From NCBI GenBank assembly GCA_903825305.1, contig CAIKAC010000017.1, positions 62,001 through 126,000 on the forward strand: a stretch of 64,000 nucleotides of DNA, in the 5' to 3' direction. The translations under genes were made by a program, and so were the position numbers. The notes under the pieces are model-generated. The model searched no databases. It saw only the letters and a list, made by a program, of their open reading frames with translations, and had not been told where the DNA came from. Source of the stretch: an uncultured Actinomycetes bacterium (GTDB lineage: Bacteria > Actinomycetota > Acidimicrobiia > Acidimicrobiales > RAAP-2). Every line of letters begins with the position of its first letter. The first letter of the stretch is position 1. This document shows positions 34,301 through 42,058 of this stretch, in pieces.

Positions 34301-36058
34301 ATGACGGGAATGGGCGGTTCGCTCAGTAGTCAAAATACGGTTGTCACCCAGCACTTCGAGCGTCTCTTGTTCGAGCAATTGCTCATTGCCCTGATTTTGG
34401 TGGCAGCTGCCGGTGCCATCGGGGCGTTGTGGTTTCGCCGCGCCCAACAAGACAACCTCACCGAAGTTGCCGAACCCAGTGGACGCAGACTTCTTCGCAT
34501 TGGATTTGGCATCATCTGGATTATCGATGGTTTGCTGCAGCTCCAGGTGCAAATGCCCATCGGCATGCCGACTCAAGTCGTGGCGCCAACGGCTGCATCA
34601 GCGCCAGGATGGCTCGCGTCCTTGGTGACGAGTGGCGTCGATGCGTGGTTGCGTCACCCCATAACCGCAGCGGTCGCCACGGTGTGGATTCAGGTAGGCA
34701 TCGGTTGCTGGCTTCTGATTGCTCGCAGGGGTCGCTGGTCTCAAGCGGCAGGTGTGGCCGCCGCCGCATGGGGTCTCGGTGTGTGGATCTTTGGCAATAG
34801 CCTCGGCGGCCTCTTCATGGCGCCCATCAGTTGGATGACCGGTGCTCCGGGGGCCGTTGCCTTCTATGTGGTGGCCGGCGTGCTCATTGCCCTGCCTGAC
34901 CGTGTGGTCGCCTCGAAGAGCACGATGACGTGGGTAACGCGAGCCATGGGCGCACTCATCCTGTATTTCGGGATTCTCCAGGCGTGGCCGGGTCGCGGCT
35001 TCTGGTCAGGTGGGACCGCGTCGAGTCCAGGGGCTATTCCGGCCATGGCCCAAAACATGGGCAGTGTCTCTCAGCCTGGCTTTGCCGCGTCCATTCAGCA
35101 CTGGTTCGCGAGCACCACGTTGAGTTATTCCTGGCTCTACAACGCCGTGGTCGTGGTGGTGTTACTTGGTGTTGGTGCGGCCTATTTGTCGCGGCGCCCC
35201 CAATTCTTGCGCCCGGCGTCCTGGGTTTATCTGGCAGCCTGCGTCATCAACTGGGTGCTGGTGCAAGACTTTGGTGTCTTTGGCGGCATGGGAACTGATC
35301 TCAACTCCATGATCCCCTGGGGGCTGTGTGCGCTTGGCATCGCCAAGTTGTCAATAGCGGCCGACGAAGCAGTTGAGGTTCCCGAGGTCACGCTGGATAT
35401 GGCCGCTTCAGAGCGAGCTCGGCTGCGCCAAGTCGGGTCGCTTGCTGCCCTGTTTGTCTTTGCCTTCGGGGCCATCCCCATGTTGTTGCTCCCGATCCTG
35501 CCTGGCGCTACAGCGGATGCTGCCGTTGCCTCGGGAGCCCAGGTGACCCCCCTCGCGGGACCTGCACCTTCATTTACCTTGATGAATCAAAACAATCAGA
35601 CGGTGTCGCTGGCTTCGCTGAAAGGTCGAGCCGTGGTGCTCGGATTCCTCGATCCTGTTTGCACGAACGACTGCCCTGTCGAGGCCCACGAGTTCGAAGC
35701 CGCTGCCGCCGCGTTGCCCGCTTCTACGATCTTCATAGCGGTTGACGTGAACCCGCTCTATCTCTCGACTGCCTCACTTCGAACCTTCATTGCGAATGAA
35801 GGGTTGAGTTCGTTCAAGAATTTTGACTACGTGACTGGAACGATCCCCGAGCTCAACAAAGTGTGGAGTAAATACGGCGTCGACGTACAGATTGCGGCCA
35901 ATGGTTCCATGGTCGCGCACACGGAACCGGTTTACGTCATTGGTCCCAACGGCAACCTTGCTGCTACTTGGGCGGTGCAGACCGGCGCGAATGCATCCAA
36001 CCCCGTTGGTCAGTCGTCAACTTCCATTCTGATTTCTCAGGTGAAGGCGGCTTCGTGA
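34301..36058 (+). CDS. Polytopic membrane protein fused to a SCO-type copper chaperone domain
   Basis: The 585-aa product has about ten hydrophobic segments (residues about 20-400), then an extracytoplasmic thioredoxin-fold SCO1/SenC-like domain (about 425-580). SCO signatures are LDPVCTNDCP with Cys454 and Cys458 (C-x3-C) and the downstream copper His540 in VAHTEPVYVIGPNG. SCO proteins deliver Cu to the CuA site of oxidase subunit II. An AGCGGAGG site precedes the ATG. Context (CtaG, coxB-A-C) fits oxidase assembly. The fused transmembrane part is not recognised; a DoxX-like origin is a guess. Confidence 0.85.
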   Translation: MTGMGGSLSSQNTVVTQHFERLLFEQLLIALILVAAAGAIGALWFRRAQQDNLTEVAEPSGRRLLRIGFGIIWIIDGLLQLQVQMPIGMPTQVVAPTAASAPGWLASLVTSGVDAWLRHPITAAVATVWIQVGIGCWLLIARRGRWSQAAGVAAAAWGLGVWIFGNSLGGLFMAPISWMTGAPGAVAFYVVAGVLIALPDRVVASKSTMTWVTRAMGALILYFGILQAWPGRGFWSGGTASSPGAIPAMAQNMGSVSQPGFAASIQHWFASTTLSYSWLYNAVVVVVLLGVGAAYLSRRPQFLRPASWVYLAACVINWVLVQDFGVFGGMGTDLNSMIPWGLCALGIAKLSIAADEAVEVPEVTLDMAASERARLRQVGSLAALFVFAFGAIPMLLLPILPGATADAAVASGAQVTPLAGPAPSFTLMNQNNQTVSLASLKGRAVVLGFLDPVCTNDCPVEAHEFEAAAAALPASTIFIAVDVNPLYLSTASLRTFIANEGLSSFKNFDYVTGTIPELNKVWSKYGVDVQIAANGSMVAHTEPVYVIGPNGNLAATWAVQTGANASNPVGQSSTSILISQVKAAS

Positions 36059-37194: not shown

Positions 37195-37236
37195 GTTGTT
37201 TGCCAAAGGTAGTCATGTCGTGCTGAGGTGGCACCC

Positions 37237-38106
37237 ATGGATTGGATGAGCCAGACCTGGAGTGTCAGCCCTCTCTGGATTCCCGTTGTCTTGTTGATAG
37301 CGATTGAAGAGTTTGGTTTGGCGCACATGCGCTCGCGCATGAATGCCAAGCGATTTGCTTCCTGGCGACGCCGAGGCTTTGGCTATGACCTTGCTCTTGG
37401 TGCAGTGGCTTTGGTCGACTCGAGCCCGGCTATGGGCTTCTCCATGGACCATCTCACCGCGCACATGATGATCCACATCATGGAGATGTTTTACATTCCC
37501 TGCCTGCTCGTCGTATGTGCTCCTGGTCTGCCCGCGATGTTCGCGTTGCCCGTGAATGTGAGGCGCCGAGCTCTCAGGTGGTGGTATCTCGGAGCTGGGT
37601 CCATCATCCGCAACAGCATCGGCAAGATGGTGACTGCTCCGCTCTTTGCCATCGTGGCTTTCAACGCCCTTATGGTGGCGTGGCACATTCCTCGTCTGTT
37701 TAACTACGTCATGTGGCACCCCGCGGTGCACACCTGGCTCATGGGTCCGAGCTTCGTGATCGCCGGGTACTTGTTCTGGCGAGTGATTCTGGGCTCAGGC
37801 CCTTGGGGGCCCCGGGGCTCAACGAGGATGCAGCTCCTAGAGGTTGCCGTAACCGCCTTCGAAATGGTGATCCTCGCCATGGCCCTGTCGATCTTTAGCC
37901 ACGGTCCGTGGTATTCGATGAATATCGCCATGCTCGGACCCAGCGCAGCGCTGAAAGATCAGCAGCTCGCCGCTGGGATCTTGTGGATCTGCGGGGATCT
38001 CTGGGTCATCCCAACGCTCTATGTAATCATTCGTCGACTGATTTCGAGTACCGGAGGCGTGAGTGACGCTTTTGAAAAATTCCTCGGTCGCGAAGAAGTC
38101 GCTTAG
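37237..38106 (+). CDS. CtaG-type cytochrome c oxidase assembly membrane protein (caa3_CtaG family)
   Basis: The product is about 289 aa from ATG 37237; GTG 37228 is an alternative. Seven hydrophobic segments carry the His/Met-rich motif HLTAHMMIHIMEMFYIP (about 74-90) of the Bacillus-type CtaG family (PF09678), which binds copper for the oxidase. Further His residues lie in VAWHIPRLFNYVMWHPAVHTW. It is unrelated to the Cox11-type CtaG of proteobacteria. Its stop shares TTAG (38103-38106) with the opposite-strand small gene. Confidence 0.88.
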   Translation: MDWMSQTWSVSPLWIPVVLLIAIEEFGLAHMRSRMNAKRFASWRRRGFGYDLALGAVALVDSSPAMGFSMDHLTAHMMIHIMEMFYIPCLLVVCAPGLPAMFALPVNVRRRALRWWYLGAGSIIRNSIGKMVTAPLFAIVAFNALMVAWHIPRLFNYVMWHPAVHTWLMGPSFVIAGYLFWRVILGSGPWGPRGSTRMQLLEVAVTAFEMVILAMALSIFSHGPWYSMNIAMLGPSAALKDQQLAAGILWICGDLWVIPTLYVIIRRLISSTGGVSDAFEKFLGREEVA

Positions 38107-38447
38107 TCCTCAGATTGCGCGTCAGATTCCGCAAGTTGTTCTAAATAGGCATTCCACGCGTCGAGTTTGACTTGGTCGGCAGCACTGGCAGCCTCTTGCC
38201 GGGGAGTGGCCGGCTTGGCGGCTTTGGGGGCGTCATCTTCGTGGAGAAGTTTCCACCACATATAGATCGCAAAACACTCAAAAATCGGCCATTCGAAAAC
38301 ATATGCCCACGAAAGGGCGTTGCCGCCAAGTGCACGGGAAAGCTCAAACACGAAGGCCGGGACGCACAGCACGGTGGCGAGCGCGAGACCCAGGTGAACT
38401 TTGAGTCGACCAGTTCCCGGTGTTGGCGGCGAAGGAGGAGTGCTCAC
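38103..38447 (-). CDS. Small membrane protein opposite to the oxidase genes
   Basis: The 114-aa product from GTG 38447 (ATG 38456 is an alternative) has two hydrophobic segments (about 18-36 and 45-62, VHLGLALATVLCVPAFVFELSR and AYVFEWPIFECFAIYMWW in parts) and a charged Ala-rich tail. No family is recognised. A role as an accessory oxidase subunit is possible but rests only on location. Confidence 0.65.
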   Translation of the reverse strand: MSTPPSPPTPGTGRLKVHLGLALATVLCVPAFVFELSRALGGNALSWAYVFEWPIFECFAIYMWWKLLHEDDAPKAAKPATPRQEAASAADQVKLDAWNAYLEQLAESDAQSED

Positions 38448-38454
38448 CACCTGC

Positions 38455-38460
38455 ATCGTA
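38455..38460 (-). promoter_or_regulatory. Candidate -10 box (TACGAT) for the 38447 gene
   Basis: On the minus strand TACGAT is followed by 7 nt and GTG 38447; it also covers the alternative ATG at 38456, which favours the GTG. Confidence 0.4.
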
Positions 38461-38586: not shown

Positions 38587-39306
38587 ATGAAGCGAATCGT
38601 ATGGGGACTTATTTCTCTGGTTATTGCAGTTGTGGCTGTAGGTCTGGTGATCTTCGGATTCTCCAAGCAGCAATACCAAGCTCCGACGGGAACCGTGGCG
38701 GCCAAATCAGTCGGCACGATCCAATACCAGGGCATGACCCGCGACCACGTGGTGCTGACCTTTGGCACCTATCCGGACTCACAAGGCAAGTACGGCACGA
38801 TGCTCGCAGCTGAGGGCGCAGCGAGCACCCCCGGTGGCAACGTGCACCCTGGTGGTAACCCAAGCTGGCCGGCCTATGCGCCGAGCAACCAGTTCTCGGT
38901 CCCAGCTGGCGCGTATGTCACGGTTGTCTGGCACCAATACGACTCAGGTGGCGCGGTCAACGACCCCTACTTCGCTCAGGTGCACGGCACCATCGGCGGG
39001 ACTGAGACCGTAAATGGCAAGACAATAACTGGCGTTGATGCCAACAACATGGCCCACACCTTCACGGTGCGCCCGGCTCCGGGTACGGCCTCAGGATTCT
39101 TCCTGAGTGTGCCCTCGCCAGTGTCGTCACTTGGCAACAATGCCGCCAATAACGCTGGCGGGCAGACGGTCACCTTCAGCTTCATTGCTGGAGCCAAGGG
39201 TCTCTACGCTTGGAACTGCGAGTATCCATGCGGACTCGGAATCGGAGGATTTGGTGCAGTGATGGGAAGCTACGGATACATGTCGGGGTACCTCCATGTC
39301 GTCTAA
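38587..39306 (+). CDS. Membrane-anchored cupredoxin-like protein of the oxidase operon
   Basis: The 239-aa product has one N-terminal transmembrane anchor (about 4-25) and an exported domain. The segment NNMAHTFTVRPAPG and the C-terminal WNCEYPCGLGIGGFGAVMG...GYMSGYL resemble cupredoxin copper sites (one His, Cys pair, Met). The CuA His expected three residues after the second Cys is absent, so a type-1-like or altered copper site is more likely than CuA. It could be an electron donor to the oxidase. A AAAGGGGG ribosome binding site precedes ATG 38587. Confidence 0.65.
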   Translation: MKRIVWGLISLVIAVVAVGLVIFGFSKQQYQAPTGTVAAKSVGTIQYQGMTRDHVVLTFGTYPDSQGKYGTMLAAEGAASTPGGNVHPGGNPSWPAYAPSNQFSVPAGAYVTVVWHQYDSGGAVNDPYFAQVHGTIGGTETVNGKTITGVDANNMAHTFTVRPAPGTASGFFLSVPSPVSSLGNNAANNAGGQTVTFSFIAGAKGLYAWNCEYPCGLGIGGFGAVMGSYGYMSGYLHVV

Positions 39307-40126
39307 CCACGAAGACATCAAGCGCGAGCAAATCGCAGAAGCTGTTGAAGGCTGGACGCACGGGGGCCCTCTCTACCGTCGTCCCGCATTCCGCATCATG
39401 ATCTTGGTAGTGCTGTTCTCTGCCTTTGGTATTTGGGCAGCAGCCTTCTTTACCGACAAGATCATGCCGTCGATTCTTTCGACCCAGATGGGTTCTGTTC
39501 ACGACACCGTGATTTTATTCACGGTGCTGGCAGCGCCCGTTTCAGCACTCGTCTACGCCATTGCCGCTTACAGCGTGTATAAGTGGCGCCGCACGGGTGG
39601 AGACGAACCGCCGCCCGACGGTCCGCCCATCCGCGAGAACACCTTGGTGACCAGCTTGTGGCTGGGCATGTCGGTGATCTTGGTCGTAGTGCTGTTGGTC
39701 TGGGGTATGACGGCATTGTCGTCAGAAAACCAGGGTCAGCTCAAGCCAGTGACCGTGGACGTCTACGGCCAGCAGTGGCTGTGGACCTTTAAGTACCCCG
39801 GAACTGGTGTCGAATCGAACCAGTTGGTCGTACCAACGGGTCGTCAAATCCGTTTCGTGATTACGAGTTATGACGTAACCCACGGCTTCTGGCCAAACTC
39901 ACTTGGCGTCCAAGTTGACGCCAACCCTGGATTTAACACTTACATCACGGCAGACCCCACCAAGACCGGTCAGTTCGCCGTTCGCTGTTCGCAGCTATGT
40001 GGCCTGTATCACGCCTACATGGATGCCAACGGCAAGGTCGTTACTCCAGCGCAATTCTCGGCTTGGCTCATCAGCCAGGGCGCTTCATCATCGGCGGCCA
40101 ACGCATACGCGTTGGGCGGAAAGTAA
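39296..40126 (+). CDS. coxB: Cytochrome c oxidase subunit II
   Basis: The 276-aa product has hydrophobic segments near 33-52, 70-95 and 117-138 and a CuA domain outside. CuA ligands are His196 (DVTHGFWP), Cys231, Cys235, His239 and Met242 in CSQLCGLYHAYM. The usual CSELC Glu, which contributes to CuA by its backbone and to the Mg site, is Gln here. The aromatic electron-entry patch is GQQWLWTFKYP. No fused cytochrome c domain. The start overlaps the cupredoxin-like gene by 11 nt. Confidence 0.95.
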   Translation: MSSNHEDIKREQIAEAVEGWTHGGPLYRRPAFRIMILVVLFSAFGIWAAAFFTDKIMPSILSTQMGSVHDTVILFTVLAAPVSALVYAIAAYSVYKWRRTGGDEPPPDGPPIRENTLVTSLWLGMSVILVVVLLVWGMTALSSENQGQLKPVTVDVYGQQWLWTFKYPGTGVESNQLVVPTGRQIRFVITSYDVTHGFWPNSLGVQVDANPGFNTYITADPTKTGQFAVRCSQLCGLYHAYMDANGKVVTPAQFSAWLISQGASSSAANAYALGGK

Positions 40127-40138
40127 GAAGGGGTCATC

Positions 40139-42058
40139 GTGAGTACAACTGCACTCCTAGAAGACACCAAGCTTGGTCCGAAGGCAGGTGGCCTGTACCG
40201 GCACCAAAACTTCCTGACCGGCATCATCACGGGCGGGCTGGCCATGCTTGTCGGCTGGCTCATAGCTCACTACACCTTGCAGAGCAACGCCAACTGGGGC
40301 TCGGACATGGTCGTTACCGTGACGATGGCGGCCTGGGTCGTGGGCTTCATGGCGGGTATCGGCGCGTTCAACGCCGTGTTCCGCTGGATGATTGGCCACG
40401 ACCAAGACCATGAAGATGAGCTTTACGCAGCAGGCGTCAGTCAAGGCTGGAAGCGCTACTTCAAGTTCTGCACCGACCACAAGGTGGTAGGTACGCAGTA
40501 CCTGGTCCTCGTAATGACCTTGTTTGCTGTTGGTGGCACCTTGGCCATGATCATCCGTACGCAGTTGATCTCGCCCAACAACCACTTGATCTCGCCGCAA
40601 ACCTATAACGCAGTGATCTCGATTCACGGCATGATCATGATCATCGCCACCATCATCATGGTGTCGGGTCCTTGGGCAAACTTCATCCTGCCGATTCAGG
40701 TTGGCGCGAAAGACATGGCCTTCCCACGACTCAATGCTTTGAGTCTGTGGCTGGTTGTCGCTGCGGTTCCGCCGATTCTGATCAGCCTCTTCATTGGTGG
40801 CGTTGACTCGGGTTGGACGACGTACGCGCCTCTTTCGGTGCAGTCGCCTCCAGGCCAAGATGCTTTCTCCATCACCATCATCACCTTCGTGGTGTCGGTG
40901 ACGGTGGCTGGTATCAACACCATTACGACGACGCTGACCATGCGAGCCAAGGGAATGACCATGGGTCGTCTCCCGATTTTCGTATGGGGATCCATCGTCT
41001 CCGCCGGTCTTGGCCTTTACGCCATGCCTGCATTCTTGGCAGCTCAGTCCATGTTGTTGACCGACCGCGTGGTTGGCACCAGCTTCTTTGCACCAGCCCA
41101 AGGTGGCGCCGGTTGGCTCTATGAAAACATCTTCTGGATCATGGGACACCCTGAGGTGTACGTGATCTTGATCCCAGGTGTCGCCGCCGCCATGGATGTT
41201 GCCTCGACCTTCTCTCGGAAGCCTGTCTTTGGTTACAAGATCGGTATCGGTGCTTTCTTCGGTCTTGCGGTGTTGGCCATCATGGTGTGGGCTCACCACA
41301 TGTTTACGACGGGCTGGGCACCAAACTTGGCTGACCCGTGGATGCTCACCACTGAGTTGATCTCTATCCCGACCGGAATTTTCTTCTTGGTAATCATTGG
41401 AACGCTGTGGCGAGGATCCATCTGGACTCGCTTGCCGATGTACTGGGTCTATCTGTTCCTGTGGAACTTCATCATCGGTGGTGTGACTGGTATCTACCTG
41501 TCAGACGTCCCCGCAGACCAGTACTTCCACGGCGACATGTTCGTGACTGCCCACTTCCACTACACCTTGTTGGGTGGTGCGATGATTGGCGCCACTGCAG
41601 CTCTGTGTTACTGGTTCCCCAAGATGAGTGGTCGTATGCTCAACGAGCGCATCGGAAAGACCGCATTCTGGGTTGTCGCCATCTTCTTCCAGGTCACGTA
41701 CTTCGGTATGTTCTGGGAAGGTTTCCAAGGCATGCCCCGTCGAATTGCGGCCTACGCACCGTATTTCCACACGGCAAACGTGATTGCCACGGTTGGCGCG
41801 TACGGTCTGTTCCTCGGGTGGGTGATCTTGCTCTACGCCTTGATCCACTCGTGGATGAACGGCAAGGTTGCGCCTTCGAACCCCTGGCACGCCAAGTCGC
41901 TTGAGTGGCACATTTCGTCGCCGCCGCCCTTGGAGAACTTCTTGGTAGACCCAATTGTCACCTCTGACCCCTACACCTACGGTGAGGATGAAGCGGCGAC
42001 GCCAGCTAAGAACCCAACCCCGGCAACTGTCGGCTCGAGCGAGGAGGGGGCTCACTGA
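40139..42058 (+). CDS. coxA: Cytochrome c oxidase subunit I (A-type)
   Basis: The 639-aa heme-copper core has two extra N-terminal membrane segments (about 27-46, 57-80) before the canonical core begins at DHKVVGTQYL (113). Heme ligands His163 and His474 and heme a3 His472, and CuB ligands His337, His386 and His387, are in place, with GHPEVY giving Glu339 and the His-linked Tyr341. D-channel Asn181, Asp192 and Asn199 are present. The K-channel Lys in IPTGIK is Phe415 (IPTGIFF). GTG 40139 follows AAGAAGGGG. Confidence 0.97.
   Translation: MSTTALLEDTKLGPKAGGLYRHQNFLTGIITGGLAMLVGWLIAHYTLQSNANWGSDMVVTVTMAAWVVGFMAGIGAFNAVFRWMIGHDQDHEDELYAAGVSQGWKRYFKFCTDHKVVGTQYLVLVMTLFAVGGTLAMIIRTQLISPNNHLISPQTYNAVISIHGMIMIIATIIMVSGPWANFILPIQVGAKDMAFPRLNALSLWLVVAAVPPILISLFIGGVDSGWTTYAPLSVQSPPGQDAFSITIITFVVSVTVAGINTITTTLTMRAKGMTMGRLPIFVWGSIVSAGLGLYAMPAFLAAQSMLLTDRVVGTSFFAPAQGGAGWLYENIFWIMGHPEVYVILIPGVAAAMDVASTFSRKPVFGYKIGIGAFFGLAVLAIMVWAHHMFTTGWAPNLADPWMLTTELISIPTGIFFLVIIGTLWRGSIWTRLPMYWVYLFLWNFIIGGVTGIYLSDVPADQYFHGDMFVTAHFHYTLLGGAMIGATAALCYWFPKMSGRMLNERIGKTAFWVVAIFFQVTYFGMFWEGFQGMPRRIAAYAPYFHTANVIATVGAYGLFLGWVILLYALIHSWMNGKVAPSNPWHAKSLEWHISSPPPLENFLVDPIVTSDPYTYGEDEAATPAKNPTPATVGSSEEGAH

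Follow-up and report, generated by a model that had tools for sequence, protein, structure and literature searches.

The window, by which we mean the whole stretch of 64,000 nucleotides that was analysed, harbors a gene cluster for a heme-copper oxidase whose subunit I (COX1) does not have the lysine of the K-channel (K-less below; COX1 with the lysine are called K-bearing). The genes of the cluster are the following:

34301..36058, plus strand, protein with C-terminal SCO1/SenC domain, conserved upstream in relatives
37228..38106, plus strand, CtaG (Caa3_CtaG) assembly factor
38103..38456, minus strand, small protein conserved in the cluster
38587..39306, plus strand, cup, membrane-anchored cupredoxin-like protein, operon partner that recurs with K-less types 1, 2 and 4
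39296..40126, plus strand, subunit II with full CuA motif, Thr119 at the position of Glu101(II) of the Rhodobacter (Rs) enzyme
40139..42058, plus strand, K-less subunit I (COX1) of heme-copper oxidase with two extra N-terminal helices, 639 aa, GTG start, Pfam COX1 408.4 bits
42058..42765, plus strand, putative subunit III without match in Pfam or NCBIfam, 235 aa, conserved gene following COX1

The SCO1/SenC-domain protein probably functions in copper delivery. The genome (1.94 Mb in 27 contigs) encodes heme A synthase and also a second, canonical COX1 that is K-bearing (L001). Within the subunit I gene of the window, all on the plus strand, lie the codons of the residues to which we refer below:

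40679..40681, Asn181, D-channel (Rs N121)
40712..40714, Asp192, D-channel (Rs D132)
40733..40735, Asn199, D-channel (Rs N139)
41153..41161, Glu339 (Rs E286) to Tyr341 (Rs Y288, active-site tyrosine)
41192..41194, Met352, position of Ser299 of the K-channel
41351..41353, Thr405, codon ACT (Rs T352, bovine T309), reported hydrogen-bond partner of a CuB ligand
41354..41356, Glu406, codon GAG (Rs M353), in 90/90 COX1 of two K-less lineages, 0/163 K-bearing and 0/1 with Lys-to-Gln exchange
41363..41365, Ser409, codon TCT (Rs A356), Ser in 89/90 K-less versus 8/163 K-bearing COX1
41381..41383, Phe415, codon TTC, position of the K-channel lysine (Rs K362)
41465..41467, Asn443, helix IX, in 79/84 COX1 of the main K-less clade and 8/163 K-bearing COX1
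41504..41506, Asp456, outer end of helix IX, in 83/84 COX1 of the main K-less clade and 0/6 of the second K-less lineage

From 41351 onward the gene reads act gag ttg atc tct atc ccg acc gga att ttc, which is T405-E406-L-I-S-I-P-T412-G-I-F415. In three phmmer alignments this stretch ran without a gap against PTGVK or PTGIK of COX1 from Thermus and mycobacteria, confirming what had been read from the letters of the gene, namely that Phe415 (TTC at 41381-41383) stands in place of the K-channel lysine. Rhodobacter numbering was set via 1m56_A, through an alphaproteobacterial stretch, and gives F415 = K362, E406 = M353 and M352 = S299. The other residues that the sequence-only reading had named were all found as well: the histidine ligands (H163, H337, H386, H387, H472 and H474), the D-channel trio (N181, D192 and N199), E339 and Y341. 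Also the two additional N-terminal membrane segments are there; in the AlphaFold model of the subunit (pLDDT 81.8) the extra helices span residues 25-47 and 56-74, followed by 76-84.

In its metal ligands, in CuA and in the equivalents of Tyr288, the D-channel trio and Glu286 the enzyme is like the A-type oxidases (aa3/caa3; Rhodobacter sphaeroides aa3, Thermus caa3), and its model superimposes on 3omi_C with a VIA-align Z of 53.5 and an rmsd of 1.3 over 492 residues. It differs from them by the replacement of K362, S299 and E101(II), by a glutamate at Rs 353, by the two extra N-terminal helices and by the cupredoxin-like operon partner; its score against TIGR02891 (CtaD), 534.8, is under the cut-off of 670.75. 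Table 2 of PMC3084760 defines type A by both channels, including Lys, Thr, Ser and Tyr of the K-channel. Of the features of type A1, the six histidine ligands and the cross-linking tyrosine of helix VI are present, as are the D-channel residues with the Glu286 equivalent (N181, D192, N199, E339) and CuA in subunit II; of the K-channel, Thr and Tyr are kept and Lys, Ser and Glu101(II) are absent. By its residues the enzyme therefore falls outside the definition of type A, the K-channel being missing, although its position in the tree is within family A (weak root, 72/94). It is no B-type oxidase either, which would have an alternative Thr/Ser/Tyr K-channel and no D-channel: it has Phe at the lysine site, and its D-channel is present. 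K-channel variants in family A are already published; the sections of PMC8239418 on them (Degli Esposti, 2021) describe such variants, with seven K-channel losses under one of two scenarios, and a basal "2TM" COX1 lineage with two extra N-terminal helices, which the COX1 of the window resembles in these helices when compared by text description rather than residue by residue.

Among 254 distinct COX1 sequences, 163 were K-bearing and 91 K-less, and 90 of the 91 belong to two lineages. The main lineage (84 sequences) covers the class of the window's organism, other Actinomycetota and Chloroflexota; the second (six sequences) is nested among ordinary actinobacterial enzymes. Glu406 was found in 84/84 sequences of the main and 6/6 of the second lineage, in 0/163 K-bearing COX1 and in 0/1 with Lys exchanged for Gln, totals over the 254 sequences that include loci selected by a DNA pattern for Glu406 (see below), the row counts not being independent. 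The COX1 of a congener, 93% identical, is also without the lysine. In a scan of genome contigs the closest named COX1 records among the best 80 of 592 relatives were 68-74% identical and came from Acidimicrobiaceae and actinobacterial metagenome-assembled genomes (MAGs); within these best 80, L003-L011 are without the lysine and L012-L082 have it (71/71). A family search (E 1e-150) matched 49 of 172 genomes, and in the 40 sequences aligned from the 50 matches listed the lysine was absent throughout (40/40).

The DNA pattern, T-E-x-I-x-x-P-x-G, fixes Glu406 and leaves the lysine site free. It matched 44 of 395 genomes in the class of the window's organism, and the 30 loci listed were all COX1 and all K-less. 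In the phylum of L010, a Chloroflexi MAG, 37 of 251 genomes matched, the 20 new loci listed being 11 COX1, all K-less, and nine other genes; in the phylum of the window's organism (19 of 246 genomes) the nine loci from new genomes (L198-L206) were five COX1, again all K-less, and four other genes. In a sample of the gammaproteobacterial class the pattern occurred in 5 of 274 genomes, none of the five in COX1, K-less COX1 with another motif lying outside its reach. Plasmid records gave 909 matches, every one below 60% identity. According to the part of PMC10654088 that concerns its origin, the cox cluster of Acidithiobacillus appears to be derived from Chloroflexi, Actinobacteria and other lineages.

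Because the pattern itself selects Glu406, a protein search blind to the residue was run in the phylum of the window's organism, where it matched 126 of 246 genomes at E 1e-70. The rows were 30 loci and 80 further ones among the matches listed, in list order with skips, and lean to relatives of the window's COX1; of the 109 rows without the latter, 93 had Lys and no Glu406, 15 had Glu406 and no Lys, and one (L303) had Gln and no Glu406. This COX1 (L303:2-1750) has Gln in place of the K-channel lysine, Ile in place of Glu286 and PSG instead of PTG; among the 254 sequences it is the sole K-less one without Glu406.

The sequence-only reading had proposed to look for another protonatable residue near Phe415, and the search yielded Glu406, invariant in both K-less lineages. 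A lysine elsewhere at the same structural site was not found: within 345-357 and 404-423 neither K-less lineage has a recurrent Lys, Arg or His, and the idea of a relocated basic residue close by was dropped. The sole other acid in these two stretches is at position 353 (90/90 K-less), where Glu occurs also in 30 of 70 K-bearing rows. As to phenylalanine being standard in a well-studied A-type subgroup, a large subgroup does have Ile, Val, Phe or Leu as its usual residue here, but no biochemical study of this K-less subgroup was found in the open-access literature.

Two residues of the K-channel, H96 and E101, belong to subunit II. The passage on the channel in PMC10341450 names Y288, T359, K362, S365, H96 and E101. 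Subunit II of the window has the complete CuA motif CSQLCGLYHAYM with the upstream histidine, and beyond the lysine noticed earlier the K-channel has lost Ser299 in subunit I (Met352) and Glu101 in subunit II (Thr119); these losses, Glu406 and the clade-wide extent of the K-less state are new relative to that first reading. A subunit II frame with CuA motif was present at 118 of the 138 COX1 loci compared, and Glu101(II) was found in 66/66 partners of K-bearing and 0/52 partners of K-less COX1. For the second K-less lineage two subunits II were read by eye, and the glutamate was absent in both. In subunit I of the main K-less clade the positions of S299 and S365 are mostly replaced, and Tyr and Thr are kept; in the second lineage the S299 position still has Ser or Thr. 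Tyr341 is present in 90/90 K-less COX1 and the three CuB histidines in 89/90, the exception being L118 (see below).

In a FastTree phylogeny of 253 tips, calculated with seven diagnostic columns left out of the alignment, the K-less COX1 formed clades of 83 (0.994) and six (1.0) sequences, plus L303. An IQ-TREE of 47 chosen rows, which did not include L303, recovered K-less clades with 100/99 and 100/100, the starred branches forcing two changes, and the second clade is surrounded by K-bearing A1 enzymes of actinobacteria. When nine outgroup rows were added, the main K-less clade grouped with K-bearing A2 types (95/99) on the side of family A, the root branch being weak (72/94); its sisters were K-bearing L218, which has two extra N-terminal segments, and L241 (93/92). 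The second clade was again placed next to K-bearing rows from actinobacteria (87/99, with neighbours at 86/95 and 81/93). In the trees the combination of K-less state and Glu406 thus has a separate second occurrence; since only two origins were found, the coupling of Lys and Glu406 rests on few independent events. An ancestral K-less state was considered, as midpoint rooting of the 47 rows places the root within the main K-less clade. With the outgroups the root moves out of this clade, and the comparison therefore leans towards loss of the lysine, favoured rather than proven in view of the weak root branch and the long branches leading to the outgroups.

The main K-less clade is not uniform. 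Asn199 is kept in 53 of its 84 COX1, and ten have Ala at Glu339, as in A2-like enzymes. In 30 of the 84, Glu is found at N199 (Rs N139), and D192 (Rs D132) is replaced by Arg (26) or Lys (4), so that both canonical channels are gone in these sequences (L126, L127, L129-L133, L156-L159 and others).

What A-type oxidases need a second proton channel for has long been asked, and work on it has relied largely on crippling mutants such as K362M. Evolution appears to have run the removal of the K-channel twice, with the same residue, Glu406, arising both times, and the swap offers a way to tell Lys362 as a channel from Lys362 as a local charge. A report of the swap of Lys for Glu406 was not found in the open-access (PMC) literature. 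Proton coupling may differ in many ordinary-looking COX1 of Actinomycetota and Chloroflexota.

Starting from the substitutions, their clade-wide coupling and the second, separate occurrence, we propose that the K-less enzyme is a CuA oxidase from the family A lineage which, to judge from its residues, reduces O2, and that in it a carboxylate on helix VIII has replaced a K-channel removed from both subunits; in this proposal we place about equal belief and doubt. The channel would have been removed by the exchange of Lys362 for Phe and of Ser299 for Met in subunit I, and of Glu101 for Thr in subunit II. The job of Lys362, to bring the charge-compensating proton to the CuB/Tyr side as the binuclear centre is reduced, would have passed to Glu406, which we infer to be buried and proton-carrying and which sits on helix VIII, adjacent to the threonine hydrogen bonded to a CuB ligand. 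On a helical wheel drawn from what we take to be the heme contacts, its side chain points to helix IX, on the flank opposite K362. Bovine T309, the counterpart of Thr405, is described in the pertinent section of PMC10766771 as hydrogen bonded to the CuB ligand His290 and as widely conserved among enzymes of the aa3 and ba3 types. Protons would be relayed from Glu406 via a hydroxyl ladder of Thr405, Ser409 and Thr412, and in enzymes of the window's type Glu406 could be refilled from the intact D-channel. Such a refill would not be valid for all K-less enzymes, because the sub-branch of 30 sequences has Arg or Lys for D132 and Glu for N139. The altered proton route suggested in the sequence-only reading thus gains substance from the K-channel residues gone in both subunits and from Glu406; the role given there to the extra helices is unsupported (see below).

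A wider claim is more tentative, and we doubt it somewhat more than we believe it: that at least two times in family A the K-channel was dropped, in subunit I and subunit II alike, and the supply of protons to the CuB side was rebuilt on a helix-VIII glutamate (Rs 353), and that one sub-branch, having also lost the canonical entrance of the D-channel, reduces O2 with neither textbook channel.

Alternatively, the D-channel alone could bring in all protons, Glu406 being structural or tuning the potentials of heme a3 and CuB, and the K-path could have been lost because the electron donor is of high potential and slow turnover is tolerated. The intact D-channel residues of the window's type and the recurrent cupredoxin-like partner are in line with this, and mutants without the K-channel lysine still perform the first reduction, as stated in the relevant part of PMC8079940. 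Since it leaves unexplained both why Glu406 is invariant in the two K-less lineages and how the sub-branch with the altered D-channel works, we consider this explanation rather unlikely.

It is less probable still that the protons for the chemistry enter from the P side, the outside, and run along helices VIII and IX, via Asp456, Asn443 and Glu406, as in nitric oxide reductases, with less energy conserved. Asp456 (83/84) and Asn443 (79/84) mark the main K-less clade, one sub-branch of which is without both canonical channels, but in the second lineage both residues are missing (0/6 each), and the helix VIII glutamate of the one nitric oxide reductase aligned corresponds to position 408 rather than 406. 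An equation of Glu406 with that glutamate was rejected on the same alignment, in which one NOR-like row (L348) was compared along with eight other outgroup rows, their types assigned by motif.

That the enzyme is itself a nitric oxide reductase and not an oxidase seems very improbable. A relative, L118, has a CuB ligand replaced by Gln, and PMC8756737, where it treats the alternative nitric oxide reductases, ascribes to them cupredoxin subunits; the heme-copper fold with a cupredoxin subunit II is common to them, eNOR and the enzyme of the window. The same part of PMC8756737 defines eNOR by Gln at the site of the tyrosine, whereas the enzyme of the window retains Tyr341 and all CuB histidines, and its main clade keeps the tyrosine in 84/84 and all three histidines in 83/84 sequences.

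A replacement proton path formed by the extra N-terminal helices, which do exist in the AlphaFold model and which the sequence-only reading had thought perhaps involved, is hardly credible, since by hydropathy two extra segments are seen also in 11 of the 14 K-bearing COX1 whose N-terminus is long (among A2-like sequences, 11 of 13), and none in the second K-less lineage, where four sequences out of six have full frames (546-581 aa), L204 is a fragment and L238 incomplete. With the same hydropathy cut, the 84 K-less rows with a long N-terminus had two segments in 55 cases and one in 29. Judged by this distribution, the helices are neither needed nor sufficient for loss of the lysine, being present in K-bearing relatives and absent from the second K-less lineage; they may predate the loss, because K-bearing L218 with its two extra segments is sister to the main K-less clade.

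The order cup-subunit II-subunit I-subunit III recurs in types 1, 2 and 4. Beside the A2-like COX1 of L010, L011, L162, L165, L166 and L168 no cup was present in the stretches compared. The protein has no Pfam or NCBIfam match; its model (pLDDT 79.4) consists of one membrane helix and a beta-sandwich, with structural matches to CupA (Z 9.7), nitrosocyanin (9.1) and rusticyanin (8.2) that are little above the tool's quoted background. Of the CuA motif, the two cysteines are present and the second histidine is absent. H157, W209, C211, P214, C215, M226 and M232 are kept in all rows that align over this region, 25 out of 27.

The COX1 relative L118:6136-8283, 43-45% identical, has Gln for the CuB ligand His337, Leu for Glu339 (Rs Glu286) and Ser for the D-channel aspartate, and is possibly, to judge from these exchanges, a copy of changed function or a decayed one. 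Its genes are also arranged in the order cup-subunit II-subunit I-subunit III, and its genome holds the type found in the window too.
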